Source: a bacterium
GTDB lineage: Bacteria; CSSED10-310; JAJRTK01
Reading direction: 5' to 3'
DNA: 11,864 nt
NCBI GenBank assembly: GCA_024278345.1
Contig: JAJRTK010000272.1
Location: forward strand, 1 to 11,864
Part shown: positions 2,343-11,864 of the stretch, piece after piece
How the letters are laid out: each line of letters begins with the position of its first letter
Position numbering within the stretch: the stretch's first letter is position 1
Program-made: the position numbers and the translations under genes
The notes under the pieces: model-generated
What the model was told of the DNA's origin: nothing
Seen by the model: only the letters and a program-made list of their open reading frames with translations
Database searches by the model: none

Positions 2343-2351
2343 CTCATTTTG

Positions 2352-2819
2352 ATGGTGATCGACGGAATCAAGGGGCTACAAGAGCTGGTGGGCCGCGAGA
2401 TAGGCGTCAGTGACTGGCTCCAGATCAATGGAGAACGGATCGCGATGTTTGCTGACGCCACTTCCGATCACCAGTGGATTCACCTGGATGAAGAGCGGGC
2501 AAAAAACGGCCCTTTCGGTGGGCCCATTGCTCATGGCTATCTGACTTTGAGCCTGGGCCCACACCTCCTGAGAAGGATCTGGAGAGTGGACGGACTGGGA
2601 ATGTCCATCAACTATGGCCTGAACCGGGTCCGTTTCCCCAGTCCCGTGCCGGTGAGATCGAGACTCCGCCTCCGGGCTGAACTGCGCCGGTTGGAACGAC
2701 TAAAAGGGGCCGTCCAAGTCGCTCTGGGACTGACCTTCGAGATCGAGGGGTCCAGAAAGCCCGCCTGTGTCGCCGAGGCCCTCTTTCGCTACTATCTAGG
2801 CGGTTCGACATCCCTTTGA
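2352..2819 (+). CDS. MaoC-family (R)-specific enoyl-CoA hydratase-like protein
   Basis: Encodes 155 aa, the usual length of a single hotdog-fold MaoC protein. The hydratase-2 signature is clear: ADATSDHQWIH (residues 35-44) with the catalytic pair Asp39 and His44, followed by GGPIAHGYLTLSL (56-68), the oxyanion and dimer-interface segment. The later block YGLNRVRFPSPVPVRSRLRLR (88-108) is typical of the Rv0130 (HtdZ)/NodN-like subgroup. These enzymes hydrate trans-2-enoyl-CoA, or the ACP form, to the (R)-3-hydroxyacyl thioester in fatty acid, polyhydroxyalkanoate or related acyl metabolism in the cytoplasm. The substrate chain length cannot be read from the sequence. The gene stands alone between a divergent lipoprotein gene and a convergent methyltransferase gene, so context gives no pathway. 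It has a strong AAGGAGG site and a likely terminator downstream at 2912-2939. Confidence 0.93.
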   Translation: MVIDGIKGLQELVGREIGVSDWLQINGERIAMFADATSDHQWIHLDEERAKNGPFGGPIAHGYLTLSLGPHLLRRIWRVDGLGMSINYGLNRVRFPSPVPVRSRLRLRAELRRLERLKGAVQVALGLTFEIEGSRKPACVAEALFRYYLGGSTSL

Positions 2820-3119: not shown

Positions 3120-3908
3120 TCAACGGCCTTCTACTTGGAGAAGTTTCGTCTTTTTTTTCAGGGTCCGGGCTACCAGAAACAGGATTCCGCCCAGGGCTAT
3201 CGACCAGCCCCAGAAGGGATGGAGCACGGCCCCCCGGCTTCCCATGAGATTGCCGGCGAAATCAAGGAAGGCGAAGGTGGCAAGAATCCCGAAAAAACCA
3301 CTGTATTCCCTCCTGATAACGTTTCTGACGGAAAATGGAAGCTCGGGCGGGCGCCAGCCCCTTAGCCGCGGCAGGAAAGCCGGAGTTCCCCTGGCCCAGC
3401 TTTCGAACTCAGTCCCAAAGCGTTCCCGGAGAAAGGCCTCTTCCGCCAGCATAATCCGCTCGTAGTAGATCCAGAACATCGCCACGCAGAGCGCCAGGAT
3501 CCAGGCATCTTGGATGGAAACTACGATGCCAAGCGTAATGAAGAAGTTTCCCAAGTAAAGAGGGTGGCGGACCAGGGAATAGGCTCCGCTTTTGTTCAAA
3601 AGGCCCGCGCGAGGGGCGTTGGTCGTCCTTCCGGATGTGTCCGCCGGGGCGTGGCCAAGGGCGAAGATGCGGATGGCCAGGCCGAAAAAGGAGAGCATCA
3701 GGCAGGTGAAACCCCAGATCGGGTCGTTTCCCGCACGGTGGCCGGGGGCGGCACTACCCTCCCACATGGCAAGGACCAAGAGACCCACCATGATGAGAGG
3801 CAGGTAGCTCCGCCAGCGAAAGAGCCATTCTCCTTGTCGGATTTGTTGGTGGGCAAGAGACATTTGCGGGATGCTCGGCGGCGGCGATGGAACAGGCATA
3901 GTGTCCAT
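3120..3908 (-). CDS. ICMT/PEMT-family membrane methyltransferase
   Basis: Encodes 262 aa from ATG at 3908; the open frame runs back to 4070 (316 aa). The start is uncertain: ATGs at 3908, 3899 and 3863 are all possible and none has a strong Shine-Dalgarno site. The N-terminal part beyond 3908 looks non-protein-like. The family signature is clear: YSLVRHPLYLGN (residues 110-121), YYER and AEEAFLRERFG (148-165), then FESWARGTPAFLP. These are the RHPxYxG and EE...FG...Y/W...FLP elements of isoprenylcysteine carboxyl methyltransferase and phospholipid methyltransferase proteins, which bind S-adenosylmethionine at the membrane face. Hydrophobic segments lie near 36-50, 62-84, 119-147, 204-222 and 231-248. 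The last pair, after the catalytic C-terminal motif, is an extension. The bacterial substrate (lipid, quinone or other) is unknown. The gene is convergent with MaoC. Confidence 0.85.
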   Translation of the reverse strand: MDTMPVPSPPPSIPQMSLAHQQIRQGEWLFRWRSYLPLIMVGLLVLAMWEGSAAPGHRAGNDPIWGFTCLMLSFFGLAIRIFALGHAPADTSGRTTNAPRAGLLNKSGAYSLVRHPLYLGNFFITLGIVVSIQDAWILALCVAMFWIYYERIMLAEEAFLRERFGTEFESWARGTPAFLPRLRGWRPPELPFSVRNVIRREYSGFFGILATFAFLDFAGNLMGSRGAVLHPFWGWSIALGGILFLVARTLKKKTKLLQVEGR

Positions 3909-4389
3909 CGGCTGTGAGACCTTCGAGTTTAGGACTGGAATTTTGCGCGGGTCACCGAAAGCAGCGGCCTTCTCAGTAGCAATTTTCAGGGTTGCTGTAA
4001 AAAACAAACCCGATTCCGGGCTCGTTTCTCGGCTTCGGTCATCCATGGTGCCTCTGGCAGCTCTCGCCACGCCTGGCTCCGGTCACCTTTCCAAAACCCG
4101 CGGAGCGCAAGAAGAGCCCAGCCGAGACAAGTCCCCATAAAAATCCAAGAGTTACTGGTTTCTCTGCCGCTGGTGGCATGAAAAATATGAACAACTACTT
4201 GCTCTTCTTACTCATACACCATAGATTGAGTTTAAGGTGGGAATTTCGTGGAATCTGCCATTCAAGATTAAGGGAGTTCCCAATCCACAGCTTTCGCCAC
4301 GGATTGTGGCCAAGGGGATTGGTCTGTTTCTGGCCAGGACCACGGGGTTCGATGGAGCTTCGGCGTGGCCAGCATCGAGTGTTTGCGTG

Positions 4390-4582: not shown

Positions 4583-7500
4583 ATGCGACGAGGGAAGTTC
4601 ACTTGGCTTTGCGGAATGGCCTTGCCATTCTTGGCCCTGAACACGCTTCAGGCGGAAGGGTTTCCAGAGAGAATCCATTATGAGGGGCGGATCGACAGCG
4701 CGGTAGCCGAGCCGCTGGAAGGGCGGTTCGATATGCTCTTCCGCTATTTCGAGCCTGCCGGCCAGGAGGAGCTCCTAGCCGAACGCATGGAATTCGTTGA
4801 GGTCCACCAAGGCCGGTTTCAGGTGGAACTGGGGGCGGGAAAATCGGGCGACGGGCTCATGTCAGTCTACCGGTTTGGCTCGTTGCGGGATTTATTTGCC
4901 GCCCATGCCGAAGTACAGGTCGAAGTTTCTGTTGACGGGCAGGTGTACAGCCCGAAGTTCCGGATTCTTCCCGCCGGCCATTCTTTGAAGTCGCGCCTGG
5001 TGTTGGCGGGGCAGCGCACGGATGACGATGGGAAGCCCCACTGGAAGCACTACGAGGCGAAGAGCCCCGCAACTTCCGTTCAGGCCGTATCCCTTGAGCC
5101 AGGTGAATCCGCCAGTTCCGATCCCCACGGACCATTTTTGCTCCCCATGCGGGGGCCTTGGATTAGCCAACCCGTTAGGGACTTGCCTCCCGCGGCCCAC
5201 AAATTTGTGGAACCTAAAGATGCCGTGGCGATCAACCCACTACGCCACGAGTCTCTCTTCGATGAGGAGGGGAATCGATTTGGCACACAGGCGCCAAAGG
5301 TGGACGATCCGTTGGCAGCGGCATCTCGCATGGCACCATCCGCGGTGCTGACTCCGCCTCTGAATCTCTCCTTTGAAGGGATGAGTATCGCCGACACTCC
5401 CGGTTACTTGCCGCCCGATACCGAAGGAGTCGTTGGTTGGGACACGGTGAATAGCCGGTTGGTCTATATTCAGGTGGTCAACACTAATTTTGCCATGTAC
5501 GATTCCGCGGGTGCCCAGATCCAGGTGCCGACGGCGACGAATACGCTGTGGAGTGGAATGGCGGGGAGTCCTCCGTGCAAAATCGACAATGATGGCGATG
5601 CCATCTTAATGTATGACCAGTTTGCCCAGCGGTGGGTGTTGACGCAGTTCGCGGTGACCAATCCTGACATTTCGGTCTGTTTCGCGGTCTCGACCACTTC
5701 GGATCCCCAGGGTACGTACTACCTTTACGAACTCGTTGCCCAGCGTTTTCCAGATTACTATAAGCTCGGTATCTGGCCGGATCCCATCAACAATGCTTAC
5801 TTCATGGGCACGAACTCCGGTGCTCAGACCCAGTACGATGTTTACGCCATTGATCGGGCGAGTTTGTTGGCTGGAACGCCCCCGTCGGCAGCGCAGTTTT
5901 TCCAGAGCTACGTCAACTTGATGTTGCCAGCCGATGTGGAAGGTCCAGACCTCCCGCCATCGGGCTTTCCAGGCCTTTACTATACCATTCGAGATGGCGG
6001 CGAAGCCTATTTCGGCAGCCCGCCCAATGACAGTATCGATATTTACGAATTCCACGTCGATTGGGGAACGCCAGCGAATTCGACGTACACGCTGGTCAAG
6101 AGCTTTGCGCCACCAGAGATCACCGATTTTATATGGACGGTCTGCGGTTTCTTCGCCAGCAACTGCTTGCCTCAGCCAGGGACATCGGCAACCATTGATA
6201 GTGCTTCTTGGTGGCCCATGCAGCGGTTGGTCTACCGGAATTTCGGTTCCTACGAGGCGCTGGTGGGCACCTGGACGGTGGATACTCTTGCCACCGGGGA
6301 CCATGCGGCACCTCGTTGGTTTGACGTCCGTCGAAAAAGTGGCGTTTGGAAGGTTTATCAAGAGGGCACGCACTCGCCCGATGGAGCCCATCGCTGGATG
6401 CCCAGTATCGCCATGGATGCCGGAGGCAATATCGCTATCGGCTACAGCGTGGTGGATGCGGGGAACACGATCTACCCGTCCATCCGGTACGCAACGCGCC
6501 TTGCTTCGGAGCTGGTAGGGACGCTACAGGCCGAGGCGTCAATGATGGTTGGCGGTGGATCTCAAACCAGCACTTCAGGGCGTTGGGGAGATTATTCCTC
6601 CATGGAACTCGATCCCACCGACGATTGCACCTTCTGGTATACGACCGAATACGTGCAAACAAACGGGACGGCGCCTTGGCGCACCAGGATCGGCAGTTTC
6701 AATCTGGCCTCAGATTGTACTGCCACGACGTTTACCCTGTACACTGACCCTCCAAGCAACAGTGTCTGCCAGGGGACCGATGCTGTTTACGAAGTTGCCG
6801 TGGGCCAGGTCAACGGCTATGCCTCCAATGTGACGTTGAGCACGACAGGTGCACCGGCTGGTGCCACTGTTGCCTTTAGCACGAACCCGGTGACGCCAGC
6901 CGGGTTGAGCACGATGACCATTGGGAACACCGCGGGAGTAATCCCGGGGAGCTACCAGTTCGATGTCGTGGGCACGGCGACGTTCGCAAAGAGTAACCGT
7001 GTAACTCTCGATGTCCTGGCTGCCATCAGCGGTACGCCGCCTCTTCAGCAGCCCACAAATGGCGCCACGGGAGTTTCTACGAAGCCCACTTTTCAGTGGC
7101 AAGCCGATACCAATGCCACGCAATACACCATCCAAATTGCCACTGACGCAGGGTTTACCACCATCGTGGATACTGCTGTCGTTCTTACGAACCAGTACAC
7201 TCCTTCGACCGCGTTGGCCGGAGGAACCCTGCATTATTGGCGTGTGCGCTCCGAGAACTCTTGCTCAACGGGAAGTTTCTCTTCCGCCTTCTCGTTTACG
7301 ACAGCTGCGGTCTACTGTAGCAGCCCTGCGGTAGCCATACCTGACAATGATCCGGCCGGCGTCACGGATGACCTCGTCATTGGAGCGACCGGTACCTTGA
7401 CCGACGTCAATGTCTCGATTGTTGCGACTCACACCTATGTAGGGGATCTTGCCTTCACCCTCACCCATGTCGATACCGGTACCGCGGTCACCATCATTGA

Positions 7501-8776
7501 TCGGCCAGGCGTTCCAAATTCAACCTATGGCTGCGATCTCGACAACATTGATGCCCTGCTCGATGACGAAGGCGGAGCCGGGCCGGTGGAAAGCGCGTGT
7601 CCTCCCACGGGAGGTCTCGATTACACACCCAACAATCCCTTGACGGCGTTTGATGGGGAGAACCTTTCCGGCACTTGGAGGCTGAAGGCGAGTGATGCTT
7701 TTAGCGGTGACACCGGGACCCTCGATAGCTGGTGTTTGATACCGACGACTTCGTCGCCGGCTACGGCGACTCCTACGTCAACACCGACGTTGACTCCTAC
7801 GATGACACCGACCTTAACGCCGACATCGACGTCTACTCTTACCCCGACGCCAACATCGACGCCAACCTTGACGCCGACCTTGACGCCGACCTTCACACCG
7901 ACCTTCACACCGACCTCGACGGTGACTTCTACGCCCACTTCCACCCCCACTCCGACGCCGACATCTACGGGAATTCGCGGTGATTGCAATTCCGATACTT
8001 TCGTAGACGCAGGTGACTTGTCGGCGGAGCCCTTGGAGATCTTTGATGGAGATGGATTCGATCCAAATGCGGTCCCCGGTGGCACTTTTGCCGGTGACCC
8101 CATCGGTTGCAACTCCAATGCCGATAGTGTGGTGGACGCGGGAGATCTTTCCTGCACGGTCCTTCTCATTGGCAGTACCCCTTGCGTTATCGTACGCGGG
8201 GAAGCTGCCGGGCTGGCCCAATTGCAGATCGTTCCAGCCAGCTCTGGGAAGGGAGCGAATGCGGGTTCGGTAGCGTTTGACCTGCGTCTTGACAGCGGTG
8301 GGCATGACCTTTCCGCCCTGGCCTTCAAGATTCGGTTCCGGCCAACCTGCCTCGGATTCGATGCTCGAGATCTCGATCAGGATGGCGTGCCCGACGGTGT
8401 GAAACTTGACCTGGCACTAGGTCTCACGGGGGCAGTCAACTTGAAGCCAGGGCAAGAGCTCTCCGACCTGGAATTCGTGATCTTCGATCCAGTGGCGCCG
8501 CTCTCCCGCTTCAACGATGGACCCGTGGCCAAGATTGTGTTCGAGGACCGTTGCCAGGTGCTCCAGGGAGATTGGACCTCTGATCTTGGATTTAGCTCCA
8601 TGGAGCCCGCCTCATTTGGTGGTGTTCAAGGCCAAAGCGTTCCAGGCGAAGCCCAACCGTCCATCGCGGCACCAGTGCCACTCCAAAAGCCTTGGTTCCT
8701 TCTGAGCCTGGGATTCTTGATCCTTGCGACGGCGCTGGGTCTCTTGAGGAAAAAGAGGGCCTTTGGCTTGCGGTGA
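4583..8776 (+). CDS. Large multidomain surface protein with P domain, dockerin-like and cohesin-like modules
   Basis: Encodes 1397 aa. Residues 1-24 form a signal peptide (RRGK, hydrophobic core, cut after LQA). Residues 27-140 (IHYEGRI... RFDMLFRYFE... GRFQVELGAG) resemble the YQGRL/LRFRLYD/GLFTVELDFG domain at the N terminus of many secreted adhesin-like proteins. Residues 260-712 are a long beta-rich, propeller-like region. An Ig-like domain (713-812) and an FN3-like domain (813-910, HYWRVRSENSCS) follow. Residues 911-1056 match a proprotein-convertase P domain (GDLAFTLTHVDTGT, LSGTWRLKASDAFSGDTGTLDSW). Then come a Thr/Pro linker (1057-1131), two dockerin-like Ca loops (1134-1200), a cohesin-like domain (1205-1358) and a C-terminal hydrophobic helix with LLRKKR (about 1370-1390). 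No protease domain accompanies the P domain. It probably acts outside the cell as an anchored structural or binding protein. It is the first of three same-strand surface-protein genes. Confidence 0.88.
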   Translation: MRRGKFTWLCGMALPFLALNTLQAEGFPERIHYEGRIDSAVAEPLEGRFDMLFRYFEPAGQEELLAERMEFVEVHQGRFQVELGAGKSGDGLMSVYRFGSLRDLFAAHAEVQVEVSVDGQVYSPKFRILPAGHSLKSRLVLAGQRTDDDGKPHWKHYEAKSPATSVQAVSLEPGESASSDPHGPFLLPMRGPWISQPVRDLPPAAHKFVEPKDAVAINPLRHESLFDEEGNRFGTQAPKVDDPLAAASRMAPSAVLTPPLNLSFEGMSIADTPGYLPPDTEGVVGWDTVNSRLVYIQVVNTNFAMYDSAGAQIQVPTATNTLWSGMAGSPPCKIDNDGDAILMYDQFAQRWVLTQFAVTNPDISVCFAVSTTSDPQGTYYLYELVAQRFPDYYKLGIWPDPINNAYFMGTNSGAQTQYDVYAIDRASLLAGTPPSAAQFFQSYVNLMLPADVEGPDLPPSGFPGLYYTIRDGGEAYFGSPPNDSIDIYEFHVDWGTPANSTYTLVKSFAPPEITDFIWTVCGFFASNCLPQPGTSATIDSASWWPMQRLVYRNFGSYEALVGTWTVDTLATGDHAAPRWFDVRRKSGVWKVYQEGTHSPDGAHRWMPSIAMDAGGNIAIGYSVVDAGNTIYPSIRYATRLASELVGTLQAEASMMVGGGSQTSTSGRWGDYSSMELDPTDDCTFWYTTEYVQTNGTAPWRTRIGSFNLASDCTATTFTLYTDPPSNSVCQGTDAVYEVAVGQVNGYASNVTLSTTGAPAGATVAFSTNPVTPAGLSTMTIGNTAGVIPGSYQFDVVGTATFAKSNRVTLDVLAAISGTPPLQQPTNGATGVSTKPTFQWQADTNATQYTIQIATDAGFTTIVDTAVVLTNQYTPSTALAGGTLHYWRVRSENSCSTGSFSSAFSFTTAAVYCSSPAVAIPDNDPAGVTDDLVIGATGTLTDVNVSIVATHTYVGDLAFTLTHVDTGTAVTIIDRPGVPNSTYGCDLDNIDALLDDEGGAGPVESACPPTGGLDYTPNNPLTAFDGENLSGTWRLKASDAFSGDTGTLDSWCLIPTTSSPATATPTSTPTLTPTMTPTLTPTSTSTLTPTPTSTPTLTPTLTPTFTPTFTPTSTVTSTPTSTPTPTPTSTGIRGDCNSDTFVDAGDLSAEPLEIFDGDGFDPNAVPGGTFAGDPIGCNSNADSVVDAGDLSCTVLLIGSTPCVIVRGEAAGLAQLQIVPASSGKGANAGSVAFDLRLDSGGHDLSALAFKIRFRPTCLGFDARDLDQDGVPDGVKLDLALGLTGAVNLKPGQELSDLEFVIFDPVAPLSRFNDGPVAKIVFEDRCQVLQGDWTSDLGFSSMEPASFGGVQGQSVPGEAQPSIAAPVPLQKPWFLLSLGFLILATALGLLRKKRAFGLR
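7751..7975 (+). repeat. Thr/Pro linker coding repeat, gene A
   Basis: Codes about 75 residues in which almost every second residue is Thr (units such as TPTSTPTLTPT and TPTFTPTFTP). It separates the P domain from the dockerin-like part. Such linkers are extended and often O-glycosylated in exported proteins; glycosylation here is inference. Short repeats such as the two FTPT codon blocks suggest slippage growth. Confidence 0.85.
7976..8188 (+). other. Dockerin-like Ca-binding pair within gene A
   Basis: Two loops of similar sequence are visible: DCNSDTFVDAGDLS starting at residue 1134 and CNSNADSVVDAGDLSC about 45 residues later. The first fits the DxNxDxxxxxxD loop of type I dockerins. The second has N-S-N-A-D spacing with the same VDAGDLS ending. 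A 20-residue acidic insert (FDGDGFDPNAVPGG) lies between them, and Cys residues flank both loops (GDC, GC, SC, PC). It may therefore be a dockerin relative and not a standard dockerin. Confidence 0.6.
8195..8655 (+). other. Cohesin-like module of gene A
   Basis: The module runs LQIVPASSGKGANAGSVAFD to SFGGVQGQSVPG. It shares with the modules of the next two genes the block TCLGF near strand 3, a second Cys (EDRC), a FVIFDPVAPLSRFNDGPVAKIVF core and the SFG...VPG ending. A DLDQDGVPD Ca-type loop is inserted after TCLGF (8369-8395). Cohesin similarity rests on strand pattern and overall length, not on a database match. Confidence 0.55.
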
Positions 8777-8803
8777 GGCAGGGAATCCTTAGACTCCGTT
8801 GAA

Positions 8804-8845
8804 CCTGCCACCAATGGGATTCCGTGGAATCCCCCGTGTGGCAGG
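8804..8845 (+). repeat. Nested two-stem hairpin between genes A and B
   Basis: The outer arms CCTGCCAC (8804-8811) and GTGGCAGG (8838-8845) are perfect complements. Inside them, after a symmetric 4 x 4 internal loop, GGGATTCC (8816-8823) and GGAATCCC (8826-8833) are again perfect complements. It lies 27 bases after the stop of gene A and 67 bases before the start of gene B. There is no T tract right after it (TTTT only at 8871-8874). It could be an intercistronic stabiliser, a processing site or a partial terminator. Confidence 0.65.
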
Positions 8846-8900
8846 CTTCAGCGGAGAAGGGGCTGGGGAGTTTTGTGTTGTCGCCGGGGGAGGATGTTGT

Positions 8901-8904
8901 GAGG
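8901..8904 (+). promoter_or_regulatory. Ribosome binding site of gene B
   Basis: GAGG, 8 bases ahead of ATG at 8913. The frame is open back to a TTG at 8799, but only the 8913 start places the basic n-region directly before the signal peptide core. Confidence 0.5.
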
Positions 8905-8912
8905 TCGGGGAA

Positions 8913-10190
8913 ATGTCGAGAATTTGTCGTACTTCAATTGGACTTGTGCTGGCTTGTGTCTGGCATCAGGGGACGGTTGCAAGTGCTCAACCCCATCTCT
9001 CGATTTCCCAAAGTGTGCCTGCCGCTCCGGGAGACCGAGTGTCAGTTCCCTTGACGTTCGCGGGAAACGGCACGTTGATCTCTTCGACGGCGTTTTCCAT
9101 CGATTTTGATGAGACCTGTTTAGGGTTCGATCCCAAGGATGGAGATGGCGACGGAACTCCCGATGCCGTCACATTTTTTCTCCCCCCTGACTTTGCGCGC
9201 TCCGCGACTTATGATGCTGCCGACATCACTAGCGAGTTTTTCTTCGTCATCTTCGATCCCTTGCCGCCGCTGGCCAGTTTTCCCGATGGACCGATTGCGG
9301 CCATTGAGTTTACAGCATCCTGCACCCCCGCCGCCGGGACTGTTCTTGACGTTCCCGTGATCTTCGCCGCTGATCCAGTGACTTCCTTTGGAGACACCAC
9401 GGGGCAAGGAGTTCCGGGGACGACAAGCGATGGGTGGGTGACGATCATTGGCCCGACACCGACGGTGACATCGACGCCAACCAAAACGTGGACGCCAACG
9501 GAAACCGGCACCCCCTCGGAGACACCAACCAAGACCTTCACGCCAACCGAAACAGGCACGCCCTCGGACACGCCAACAACGAGATGGACTCCAGTCTCTG
9601 GCGCGACGTTCACACGAACCGTTACACCTAGCAACACGGCCTCAATGACCCCATCCTTCACCTTGACTCCGATAAACACGATGACATGGACGCCCACGGC
9701 GACGACAACCCCGTTTGTCCCCACTGCCACCAGAACAGCGACTCTTGTGTCTACGGCCACTCCGGCAGATCCTTCCCCAACGCCATCGGCGACCCCGTTA
9801 CTTCCGATGTTGACCGGAGGGTTGGTGGAAGGAAGTTGGCGTATTGAGTATGGGAGCGTGCTGCCGCCCGGTAGTTTTGTGGATCTGATGAGTACAACGA
9901 GAGATGAGCTGTTGGGAACGGGGGTCTCGGATGAGTTGGGGCGGGGAAGTGTCGATCTCATTCGGAGCTTGGAAGCCAGAGAAGTGCTGTTTGCGTTGAA
10001 CCGGGATACCGGAGTCGTAGGTCCAGAAGTGATTGTCGATGGAGCGCTGCTTTCGGCGGGATGGGAGGCATGGTCAGTGCGATTGCCTTTGGCGCTGCTG
10101 ATACTGTTTCTGGGAGGACGAGGTATTCAGCGCTACCATGCGTCAGGTGGAATGTCTTGTGAGCGATCATTTAGTAAGGATTCGTGCTAG
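8913..10190 (+). CDS. Anchored surface protein with one cohesin-like domain and Thr/Pro linker
   Basis: Encodes 425 aa. Residues 1-25 form a signal peptide (MSRICR, hydrophobic core, cut after ASA). Residues 28-178 form a cohesin-like module: [32 protein letters not shown], an inserted DGDGDGTPD Ca-type loop (76-84), [24 protein letters not shown], a second Cys in TASC, and [21 protein letters not shown]. Residues 181-298 are a Thr/Pro linker with an internal repeat of [13 protein letters not shown] / [13 protein letters not shown]. Residues 299-385 form a small domain I do not recognise ([22 protein letters not shown]). A hydrophobic helix near 386-403 ([12 protein letters not shown]) is followed by a 20-residue basic and Cys-containing tail. 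It probably sits in the cell envelope with the cohesin-like head displayed. It is the second of three same-strand genes, with 136 bases before it and 37 after. Confidence 0.85.
9453..9806 (+). repeat. Thr/Pro linker coding repeat, gene B
   Basis: Codes about 118 residues of Thr/Pro-rich sequence, less regular than in the neighbouring genes and with Trp and Phe inserted ([22 protein letters not shown]). [10 protein letters not shown](E/D)TPT unit occurs twice (from about 9491 and 9539). It spaces the cohesin-like head from the membrane-proximal domain. Confidence 0.8.
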
Positions 10191-10227
10191 TGATCTTGCT
10201 TTCTACAATAGAACATAAGGGCGGTCG

Positions 10228-11864
10228 ATGCAGTTCACTCATCTAATTCGAATACTGCAACGTGATGCCGCAGCGGTTGGTTCTTCCCAAGAATTGTTTT
10301 CTCTTGCCGCTGATAGTCGGCGAGCGAGTAAATGTGCTCTTGAGGATAATGTGTTGCCAATTTCATTTCAAAAATGTAGTCAAACCCAAGAGCATGTTCA
10401 CGTCAAGATAGCGACCATCGCAAAGTTCCACCTGCCATGGCTCTTCTCTTTGTGCTTTTTATTTTTCCCGAACCTGGCGTTTGCGCAGACACCAAATTTG
10501 ACAATTCCATCGAACGTGGCGGCCACGCCAGGTCAACCAATCGATGTAGCAGTGCCGTTTACTAGCAACGGCAGCCTGATATCATCGACGACATTTTCCG
10601 TGGACTTCGACGAAACTTGCTTGAGCTACAATAGCACCGCGTTCAGCGTTCCAGCCGCGTTCACGACATCGGTGAATTATGACCCACTGGACACGACAGG
10701 TGAGCTGGACATCATGATCGCGGACCTTGCGGCTCCGCTGTCTGCTTTGCCGGATGGTATTGTAGTCACCTTCAACTTCACTCCTACGTGCATACCGGGC
10801 GGTGGTTCGATCATCGCTCCAGTGATCTTCTCTACCACGCCCAGCGCGTCGTTCGGAGACACGACGGGTGGGAGCGTAGCGGGAACGACGACGGATGGTT
10901 CTGTAGAGATTTTTGCTGGACCCAACCTGACGATTCCGTCGAATGTTCCTGCGACGTCGGGTCAGCCCGTAGATGTTGCGGTGCAGTTCACGAGCAATGG
11001 TAGCTCGATTTCGTCGATGACGTTTTCAGTGGACTTCGATGAAACCTGCTTGAGCTATGGCAGCACGGCGTTTAGTGTCCCGGCGGCATTCACGACGTCG
11101 GTGAATTACGATCCGCTGGATACGACAGGTGAGCTGGACATCGTGATCGCGGATCTTGTGGCTCCGCTGTCAGCTTTGGCAGACAGTATCGTGGTGACTT
11201 TCACGTTTACGGCAACCTGCACCCCGGGGGGGGGATCGATCATTGCTCCGGTGATCTTTTCCACAACGCCAAGTGCGTCGTTCGGGGATACGACGGGCGG
11301 GAGTGTACCGGGAACGACGACGGACGGTTCCGTAGAGATACTTGCCGTCACCGCGACGCCAACGAGCACGGCTACATCGACTCCGACGAGCACATTGACG
11401 CCCACTAGCACATTGACTCCAACAAATACGGCAACCCCGACAAGCACATCGACGTCGACTCCGACGAATACGGCAACATCGACAAGTACCTCAACGTTGA
11501 TTCCGACGAATACGGCAACTCCGACTGCGACAAATACATCGACATCGACGAATACCTCAACGTTGACTCCGACCAATACTGCGACGTTGACGCCGACGAG
11601 TACGGCAACCCCGACCAATACTGCGACGTTGACGCCGACGAGTACCTCAACGCCGACGAATACTGCGACGTTGACTCCGACGAGTACGGCAACCCCGACA
11701 AGTACCTCAACGTTGACTCCGACAAATACATCGACGCCGACAAGTACGGTGACGCCTACGCCGGTGATGCCCAACCTGACGATTCCGTCGAATGTTCCAG
11801 CGACATCAGGTCAGCCAGTAAATGTTCCGGTGCAGTTCACGAGCAATGGCAGCTTGATATCATC
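10228..11864 (+). CDS. Scaffoldin-like protein with tandem cohesin-like modules (cut by window end)
   Basis: The frame is open from ATG at 10228 to the window end: 545 codons plus two bases, no stop. A signal peptide core lies far in, at residues about 66-86 ([18 protein letters not shown], cut before QTP). The true start may therefore be GTG at 10351, which has GAGG 5 bases ahead and would give a 45-residue leader. ATG at 10228 has only a weak AAGG. Residues 89-231 and 232-374 are two abutting cohesin-like modules, 126 of 143 residues identical by my count. Each has [16 protein letters not shown] or [18 protein letters not shown], a second Cys, and [10 protein letters not shown](A/P)[10 protein letters not shown]. 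Residues 375-514 are a Thr/Pro linker, and a third module starts at 515. Unlike those in the two upstream genes, these modules lack the DxDxDG loop. The gene follows gene B by 37 bases, so co-transcription is likely. It may be a multivalent scaffold. Confidence 0.85.
10492..10920 (+). repeat. Cohesin-like module 1 of gene C
   Basis: A 143-codon unit from CCAAATTTG to GCTGGA. It is directly followed by a second unit of the same length. It has Cys residues in DETCLSY and PTCIPGG that are conserved in the next unit, suggesting an intra-module disulfide. Confidence 0.85.
10921..11349 (+). repeat. Cohesin-like module 2 of gene C
   Basis: A 143-codon unit starting CCCAACCTG. By my alignment 17 of 143 residues differ from module 1, and there are also many synonymous changes. 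The duplication is therefore recent in protein terms but not brand new. No linker separates the two modules. Confidence 0.85.
11350..11769 (+). repeat. Thr/Pro linker coding repeat, gene C, with 42-bp tandem units
   Basis: Codes 140 residues with Thr at nearly every second position ([17 protein letters not shown] and similar). The end part, 11581-11748, is four 42-bp units each coding 14 residues: [42 protein letters not shown] and [14 protein letters not shown]. The repeat keeps the frame and probably varies in length between strains. Confidence 0.85.
11770..11864 (+). repeat. Start of cohesin-like module 3 of gene C
   Basis: The first 31 codons of a third module, beginning CCCAACCTGACGATTCCG. 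Over this length it is closer to module 2 than to module 1 (shared [12 protein letters not shown] and VQFTSNGS), with GSLIS as in module 1. It is cut by the window end. Confidence 0.85.

Follow-up and report, generated by a model that had tools for sequence, protein, structure and literature searches.

The cluster described here comprises three consecutive bacterial genes, termed P1, P2 and P3, whose products share a variant cohesin module, and the first of these products also harbors a variant dockerin. The two variant modules form a rare and distinct pair in the cluster and its relatives. The modules, the cohesin fold, the calcium loops, the co-occurrence of the two modules and the adjacency of their genes are established in this work. 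We give about an even chance to the view that the cluster represents a cell-surface cohesin-dockerin system of non-cellulosomal type, in which the P1 dockerin would bind P2 and P3 in trans through their cohesins.

The window, which is the whole stretch of DNA analysed, is 11,864 nucleotides long and constitutes the whole of contig C197. It comes from a genome of 6.06 Mb in 550 contigs that is 88% complete, and the source phylum is represented by eight genomes among those sampled. In the open reading frame listing, P1, P2 and P3 are three successive long frames on the plus strand. The gap between P1 and P2 is 137 nucleotides, and that between P2 and P3 varies from 37 to 160 nucleotides with the start chosen for P3. 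Promoter and terminator scans of the window gave scores near those of shuffled sequences, and an operon is therefore not claimed. Upstream of the cluster lie genes for a MaoC-like dehydratase (2349-2819, plus strand) and, on the minus strand, for a membrane protein resembling isoprenylcysteine/phospholipid methyltransferases (3120-4070), both without an evident link to it. The first 560 nucleotides recur in pieces, at 76-95% identity, on at least four other contigs of the genome (C436, C406, C494 and C465) and represent a family of dispersed repeats. This stretch contains a 24-bp tandem repeat, GGGTCACGCCCCGCGTTACCCGAA, in six copies (312-457), and a plasmid search with it returned zero matches.

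The three proteins and their modules

A sequence-only reading of the window had noted three consecutive exported proteins with a variant cohesin-like module, and indeed P1, P2 and P3 all carry a cohesin; this observation is confirmed and lies far beyond chance. All three proteins are probably exported and are apparently membrane-anchored, as judged from signal peptides and, in P1 and P2, C-terminal anchors read by eye.

P1 (4583-8776) encodes 1397 residues, and its ATG is preceded by AAGGAG, which resembles a ribosome-binding site. A signal peptide read directly from the translation (MRRGKFTWLCGMALPFLALNTLQA, 4583-4654) is followed by a propeller-like region, an Ig/fn3-like region, a P-domain, a Thr/Pro-rich linker, the dockerin-like pair, the cohesin and a C-terminal membrane segment. 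The propeller-like region of this secreted protein (5414-6742) was delimited by blastp to a 1422-residue dockerin protein of an Anaerolineales genome (L098, genome G386), with 29% identity over 571 positions (E 2e-37). The P-domain (PF01483) was found by Pfam at 7400-7738 (E 1.2e-7), and the linker occupies 7748-7969. Behind the dockerin (7970-8185) and the cohesin (8207-8665), a directly read hydrophobic segment with a basic tail (8693-8773) is the likely anchor.

P2 (8913-10190, with ATG 8913 as its likely start) consists of a signal peptide, a single cohesin, a Thr/Pro-rich linker, a C-terminal region and a membrane segment, the last of these read directly as a hydrophobic stretch at 10083-10118. 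Its cohesin, which has an acidic loop, was located by Pfam at 8991-9446, corresponding to residues 65-216 of the long frame or 27-178 counted from the likely ATG; scanned alone, it scores 25.2 bits against the Pfam Cohesin (PF00963) cut-off of 24.1.

P3 (10228-11864) lacks its 3' end, which falls beyond the end of the contig, and its exact start is uncertain; its signal peptide ends in FFPNLAFAQ. Two complete cohesins, at 10489-10911 (residues 88-229, 33.5 bits) and 10921-11340 (residues 230-372, 33.7 bits), both exceed the Pfam cut-off in the genome search. They are followed by a Thr/Pro-rich linker of tandem repeats (11344-11763) and by the opening 31 residues of a third cohesin (11770-11864). 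The claim that the third protein has at least three modules, as in a scaffoldin, thus holds for two complete cohesins, while the third is cut by the contig end. At the DNA level the second cohesin is 79% identical to the first, and the start of the third is 89% identical to that of the second; on this measure the P3 cohesins (10489-11864) are recent tandem duplicates, and the contig may have ended there because of these repeats.

The variant dockerin of P1 spans residues 1130-1201; the sequence-only reading had noted a dockerin-like calcium-binding pair in this protein, and two full loops are indeed present. The loops, DCNSDTFVDAGD (residues 1134-1145) and NSNADSVVDAGD (residues 1177-1188), follow the patterns D-x-N-x-D-xxx-D-xx-D and N-x-N-x-D-xxx-D-xx-D, so that every canonical ligand position is filled. 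As in Dockerin type I (PF00404), each loop is followed by a helix, predicted by AlphaFold2 at model residues 14-24 and 57-67. The two halves are near-identical, VDAGDLS occurring twice in the helices, and have between them a loop of some 20 inserted residues (EIFDGDG...GGTFAG) that contains a further DGDG and is in part of low confidence in the model (residues 32-45). Scanned alone, the P1 dockerin reaches 16.7 bits, below the Pfam cut-off of 22.9; its relatives L042 (34.3) and L097 (24.6) lie above this cut-off and L043 (22.6) narrowly below it. Nine of ten family members match Dockerin_1 at E <= 0.01, and the main loop ligands are kept in all ten. Both calcium loops and an Ala-Gly pair, the latter at the positions through which cellulosomal dockerins touch the cohesin, are conserved across four phyla.

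The P1 cohesin (residues 1209-1350) is 38% identical to the P2 module and is recovered by the clade profile at E 2e-48, a value from a profile whose own sequences include P1; a Pfam scan of the P1 protein does not report Cohesin. AlphaFold2 modelling of P1 residues 1130-1363, with 14 relatives, gave a dockerin-plus-cohesin model with a mean pLDDT of 85.6 and a pTM of 0.84. In a Foldseek search with residues 1209-1363 the best matches were cohesins (5nrm, E 2.7e-6). VIA-align superimposed the model on the cellulosomal cohesin 6kgf_C with a Z of 15.6 and an rmsd of 2.1 over 136 residues, and the matches listed were cohesins almost throughout. The predicted structure therefore clearly has the cohesin beta-sandwich fold, as the sequence-only reading had supposed. 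A profile of 15 clade cohesin modules likewise retrieved cohesins among solved structures at E 8e-7, and 12 of the 15 match Pfam Cohesin at E <= 0.01; searched alone by sequence against solved structures, the five modules of the window genome returned nothing convincing.

Distribution and arrangement of the pair

Relatives in named genomes were found with a hand-made DNA pattern for AGD....FDGDG, which gave 11 matches. These include Chloroflexota (L044, L045, L046 and L048), Thermoanaerobaculia (L047), Nitrospirota (L043 and L049) and an unplaced small genome (L042); L041, L050 and L051 were dropped as unrelated frames without a dockerin. A scan of the named-genome collection with the dockerin pair gave zero matches. 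Profiles of both modules were run over the genomes of the relatives and over 400 and 355 genomes, respectively, from the phyla to which L048 and L049 belong. With the two centre genomes left out, 399 Chloroflexota and 354 Nitrospirota genomes (753 in all) remained, and profiles built without sequences from the three positive genomes detected the dockerin clade in two of these, the cohesin clade in three and both in two (Fisher p 1e-5). Besides its centre genome, the Nitrospirota gave zero further cases in the profile search. One genome (G391) has the dockerin without the clade cohesin and another (G765) the cohesin without the dockerin. Overall, at least three other phyla contain the variant pair, with its two modules either in a single protein or encoded by neighbouring genes, and a description of the variant clade was not found in the literature searched, which includes few subscription papers.

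A clade cohesin lies beside the dockerin on the same chain in 11 of 14 dockerin copies. Nine copies have the order cohesin-dockerin, with a spacing fixed at 3-4 residues in every one, and in eight of these a second cohesin follows 12-43 residues behind the dockerin. P1 has the order dockerin-cohesin with a Thr/Pro linker in front, and so does a paralogue on contig C94, which is the one further VDAGDLS-type protein found when, as the sequence-only reading had proposed, the rest of the genome was searched. The C94 protein combines endonuclease I, lamin-tail, dockerin, cohesin and anchor. Two alignment columns hold paired cysteines in all nine cohesins that precede a dockerin, and outside the window genome all eight cohesins behind a dockerin are without the pair, one of them retaining a single cysteine. 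Across all modules the two cysteines are present or absent together with one exception; such co-variation is as expected of a disulfide, and we infer that the paired cysteines form one.

The partner domains of the clade include subtilases, haem peroxidase, FG-GAP and other propellers and PA14, as well as cytochrome-c7-like proteins with Pfam scores at the cut-off. An Anaerolineae protein (L046:3391-7128) joins an animal-type haem peroxidase to a cohesin-cohesin-dockerin-cohesin array and a C-terminal hydrophobic segment. In Nitrospirota (L097:952-4833 and L043:3335-4345) the pair is joined to CxxCH-rich cytochrome-like proteins and an NHL propeller, and a link to extracellular electron transfer is possible for these partners.

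The window genome contains other cohesin and dockerin proteins (on C191, C78, C436, C494 and C406), which are unmatched by the clade profiles and lie outside the statistics. They include a subtilase with a C-terminal cohesin (L013, C191) and a large metallophosphatase-phosphodiesterase fusion with a dockerin-like module, a cohesin and an anchor (L014, C78). A second, more ordinary cohesin-dockerin-cohesin-anchor cassette (L015 and L017, C436 and C494) is carried by an fn3 protein and, as judged by eye, also by an FG-GAP protein, so that the cohesin-dockerin-cohesin layout occurs in two branches within this genome.

Four genomes from three phyla have stand-alone cohesin genes adjoining the dockerin gene. 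In the window genome P2 and P3 lie behind P1; in G386 (Anaerolineales) a cohesin-only gene directly follows the dockerin gene, with 77 nucleotides between the frames; in G387 (Chloroflexi) the two genes lie side by side; and in G393 (Nitrospiraceae) the cohesin gene comes first, with 67 nucleotides between the frames. Because G386 shares the P1 propeller and its next gene encodes a cohesin, two phyla have conserved the arrangement of a propeller-dockerin gene with a cohesin gene behind it. Among dockerin-bearing genomes, five of the six stand-alone cohesin genes are adjacent to the dockerin gene, and the sixth (G392) is non-adjacent and lies at a contig end.

Proposed docking in trans and the competing explanations

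In the mechanism that we propose, P2 and P3 would be exported and would present the matching type of cohesin on long Thr/Pro stalks, and the P1 dockerin would dock into these cohesins in trans. The propeller protein would thereby be kept at the surface as part of an assembly that depends on calcium, and the cohesin of P1 itself would be free for a further dockerin, such as that of the C94 endonuclease protein. The binding, its trans mode, the need for calcium and the role of the assembly are all things that we infer. The clearest hint of trans binding is found in G393, in which the dockerin protein is without a cohesin and the neighbouring cohesin protein without a dockerin. Counting against the proposed reading are the Pfam score of the P1 dockerin, which lies below the cut-off, and the genomes G391 and G765, in each of which one clade module occurs without the other.

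With 11 of 14 dockerins accompanied by a cohesin on the same chain, the contact could instead be in cis, and both dockerins of the window genome have such a neighbour, so cis or chain-forming contacts are possible besides trans ones. The main rival to trans docking accordingly holds that the dockerin and its neighbouring cohesin or cohesins are one composite module, in which the dockerin would either lie against a cohesin of its own chain or enter that of the next copy of the protein, giving fibres joined head to tail, and we regard this as a real possibility, though one on which we would not rely. It would account for the fixed 3-4 residue spacing in nine of nine copies, eight of which continue into a second cohesin, and for the near-identical dockerin halves, as expected of two binding faces; the pTM of 0.84 also suggests a defined relative placement in the P1 model. 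However, a model of the cohesin-dockerin-cohesin unit of L048 (six sequences, pTM 0.49) left the dockerin unfolded, so that structural support for a cis unit is limited to P1, and such a unit explains neither the separate adjacent genes of G393 nor the free cohesin genes beside dockerin genes elsewhere. It is distinctly unlikely that the cohesin-like repeats and those resembling EF hands serve as structural beads of a stalk or spacer and have lost their mutual binding. The mosaic of Thr/Pro linkers, P-domain, FG-GAP, fn3 and propellers in these secreted proteins is what such beads would give, as is the recent duplication within P3, but the calcium loops and Ala-Gly pair have been kept across four phyla, and the tight co-occurrence and adjacency of dockerin and cohesin also argue against it.

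The sequence-only reading had likened P3 to a scaffoldin. A scaffoldin system with many dockerin partners was not supported, since only two dockerins of this clade were found in the incomplete genome, both beside a cohesin of their own chain. A degradative complex of the cellulosome type, in which P3 would be the scaffoldin for many dockerin enzymes, is consistent with the tandem cohesins of P3 (two full modules and a third cut at the contig end) and with the protease, nuclease and phosphodiesterase proteins of the window genome that carry cohesin or dockerin modules. Nevertheless, the same reading had already observed that the cluster is without a recognisable glycoside hydrolase domain, and Pfam found none in P1-P3 and no such domain in the scanned cohesin/dockerin proteins of the window genome and its relatives. 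Cellulose-binding domains are similarly absent from every partner scanned, including P1-P3, of which P3 is missing its end. With glycoside hydrolases and further clade dockerins lacking from a genome that is 88% complete, we consider a cellulosome highly improbable and have rejected it.

Known systems and significance

Cohesins and dockerins outside cellulosomes were recognised decades ago and are known in many bacteria as well as in archaea. To our knowledge, most of them have no known partner, and so their job is guesswork.

Among the closest known pairs are the cellulosomal CaCohA2-CaDoc0917 of Clostridium acetobutylicum (6KGC-6KGF) and ScaB of Acetivibrio (5NRK/5NRM). These have in common with the present modules the cohesin fold, a two-loop calcium dockerin, exported modular proteins and, as in P3, tandem cohesins. 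In contrast to them, the proteins scanned here yielded no glycoside hydrolases or cellulose-binding modules, the dockerin halves are separated by the insert, the clade cohesins often have paired cysteines, and dockerin and cohesin are mostly on one chain. The non-cellulosomal cohesin 2XDH of Archaeoglobus fulgidus, which lies outside cellulose degradation, has the same fold (Z 13.2 to the P1 model), but is 10% identical to the P1 cohesin over the aligned part and has different surrounding modules.

In ANME archaea, single proteins combine one dockerin with as many as five cohesins (PMC9012536), and some of their syntrophic partners strongly express cohesin/dockerin proteins (PMC10553843). For ANME and their sulfate-reducing partners, "adjacent cohesin/dockerin domains" have been described and a role in surface attachment and consortia proposed (PMC9012536, PMC10553843). 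Compared by description, those proteins and ours are alike in being non-cellulosomal and in holding dockerin and cohesins in one protein, whereas their partner domains differ, with ABC-transporter binding proteins and S-layer domains among those listed (PMC9012536, PMC10553843). The scaffoldin-like systems of Cloacimonadota, proposed to integrate several dockerin-bearing enzymes, share tandem cohesins, surface attachment and a candidate phylum with the present cluster, in which a set of dockerin-bearing enzymes is not seen (PMC8542988).

In the present case, a dockerin clade and a cohesin clade that are both rare and easy to recognise are found together across phyla. The G393 modules, alone on adjacent genes, offer a minimal pair for bench testing, and the recurrent one-chain cohesin-dockerin-cohesin unit with its fixed spacing is unpredicted by the cellulosome model. 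As a speculation in which we place rather little confidence, this unit may be a single composite device, with a two-faced dockerin, a disulfide-locked cohesin before it and a cohesin of another subtype behind, which would self-assemble head to tail into fibres at the surface or act as a lock opened and closed by calcium. If that were true, propellers, proteases, a peroxidase or a nuclease would be its cargo in several phyla.
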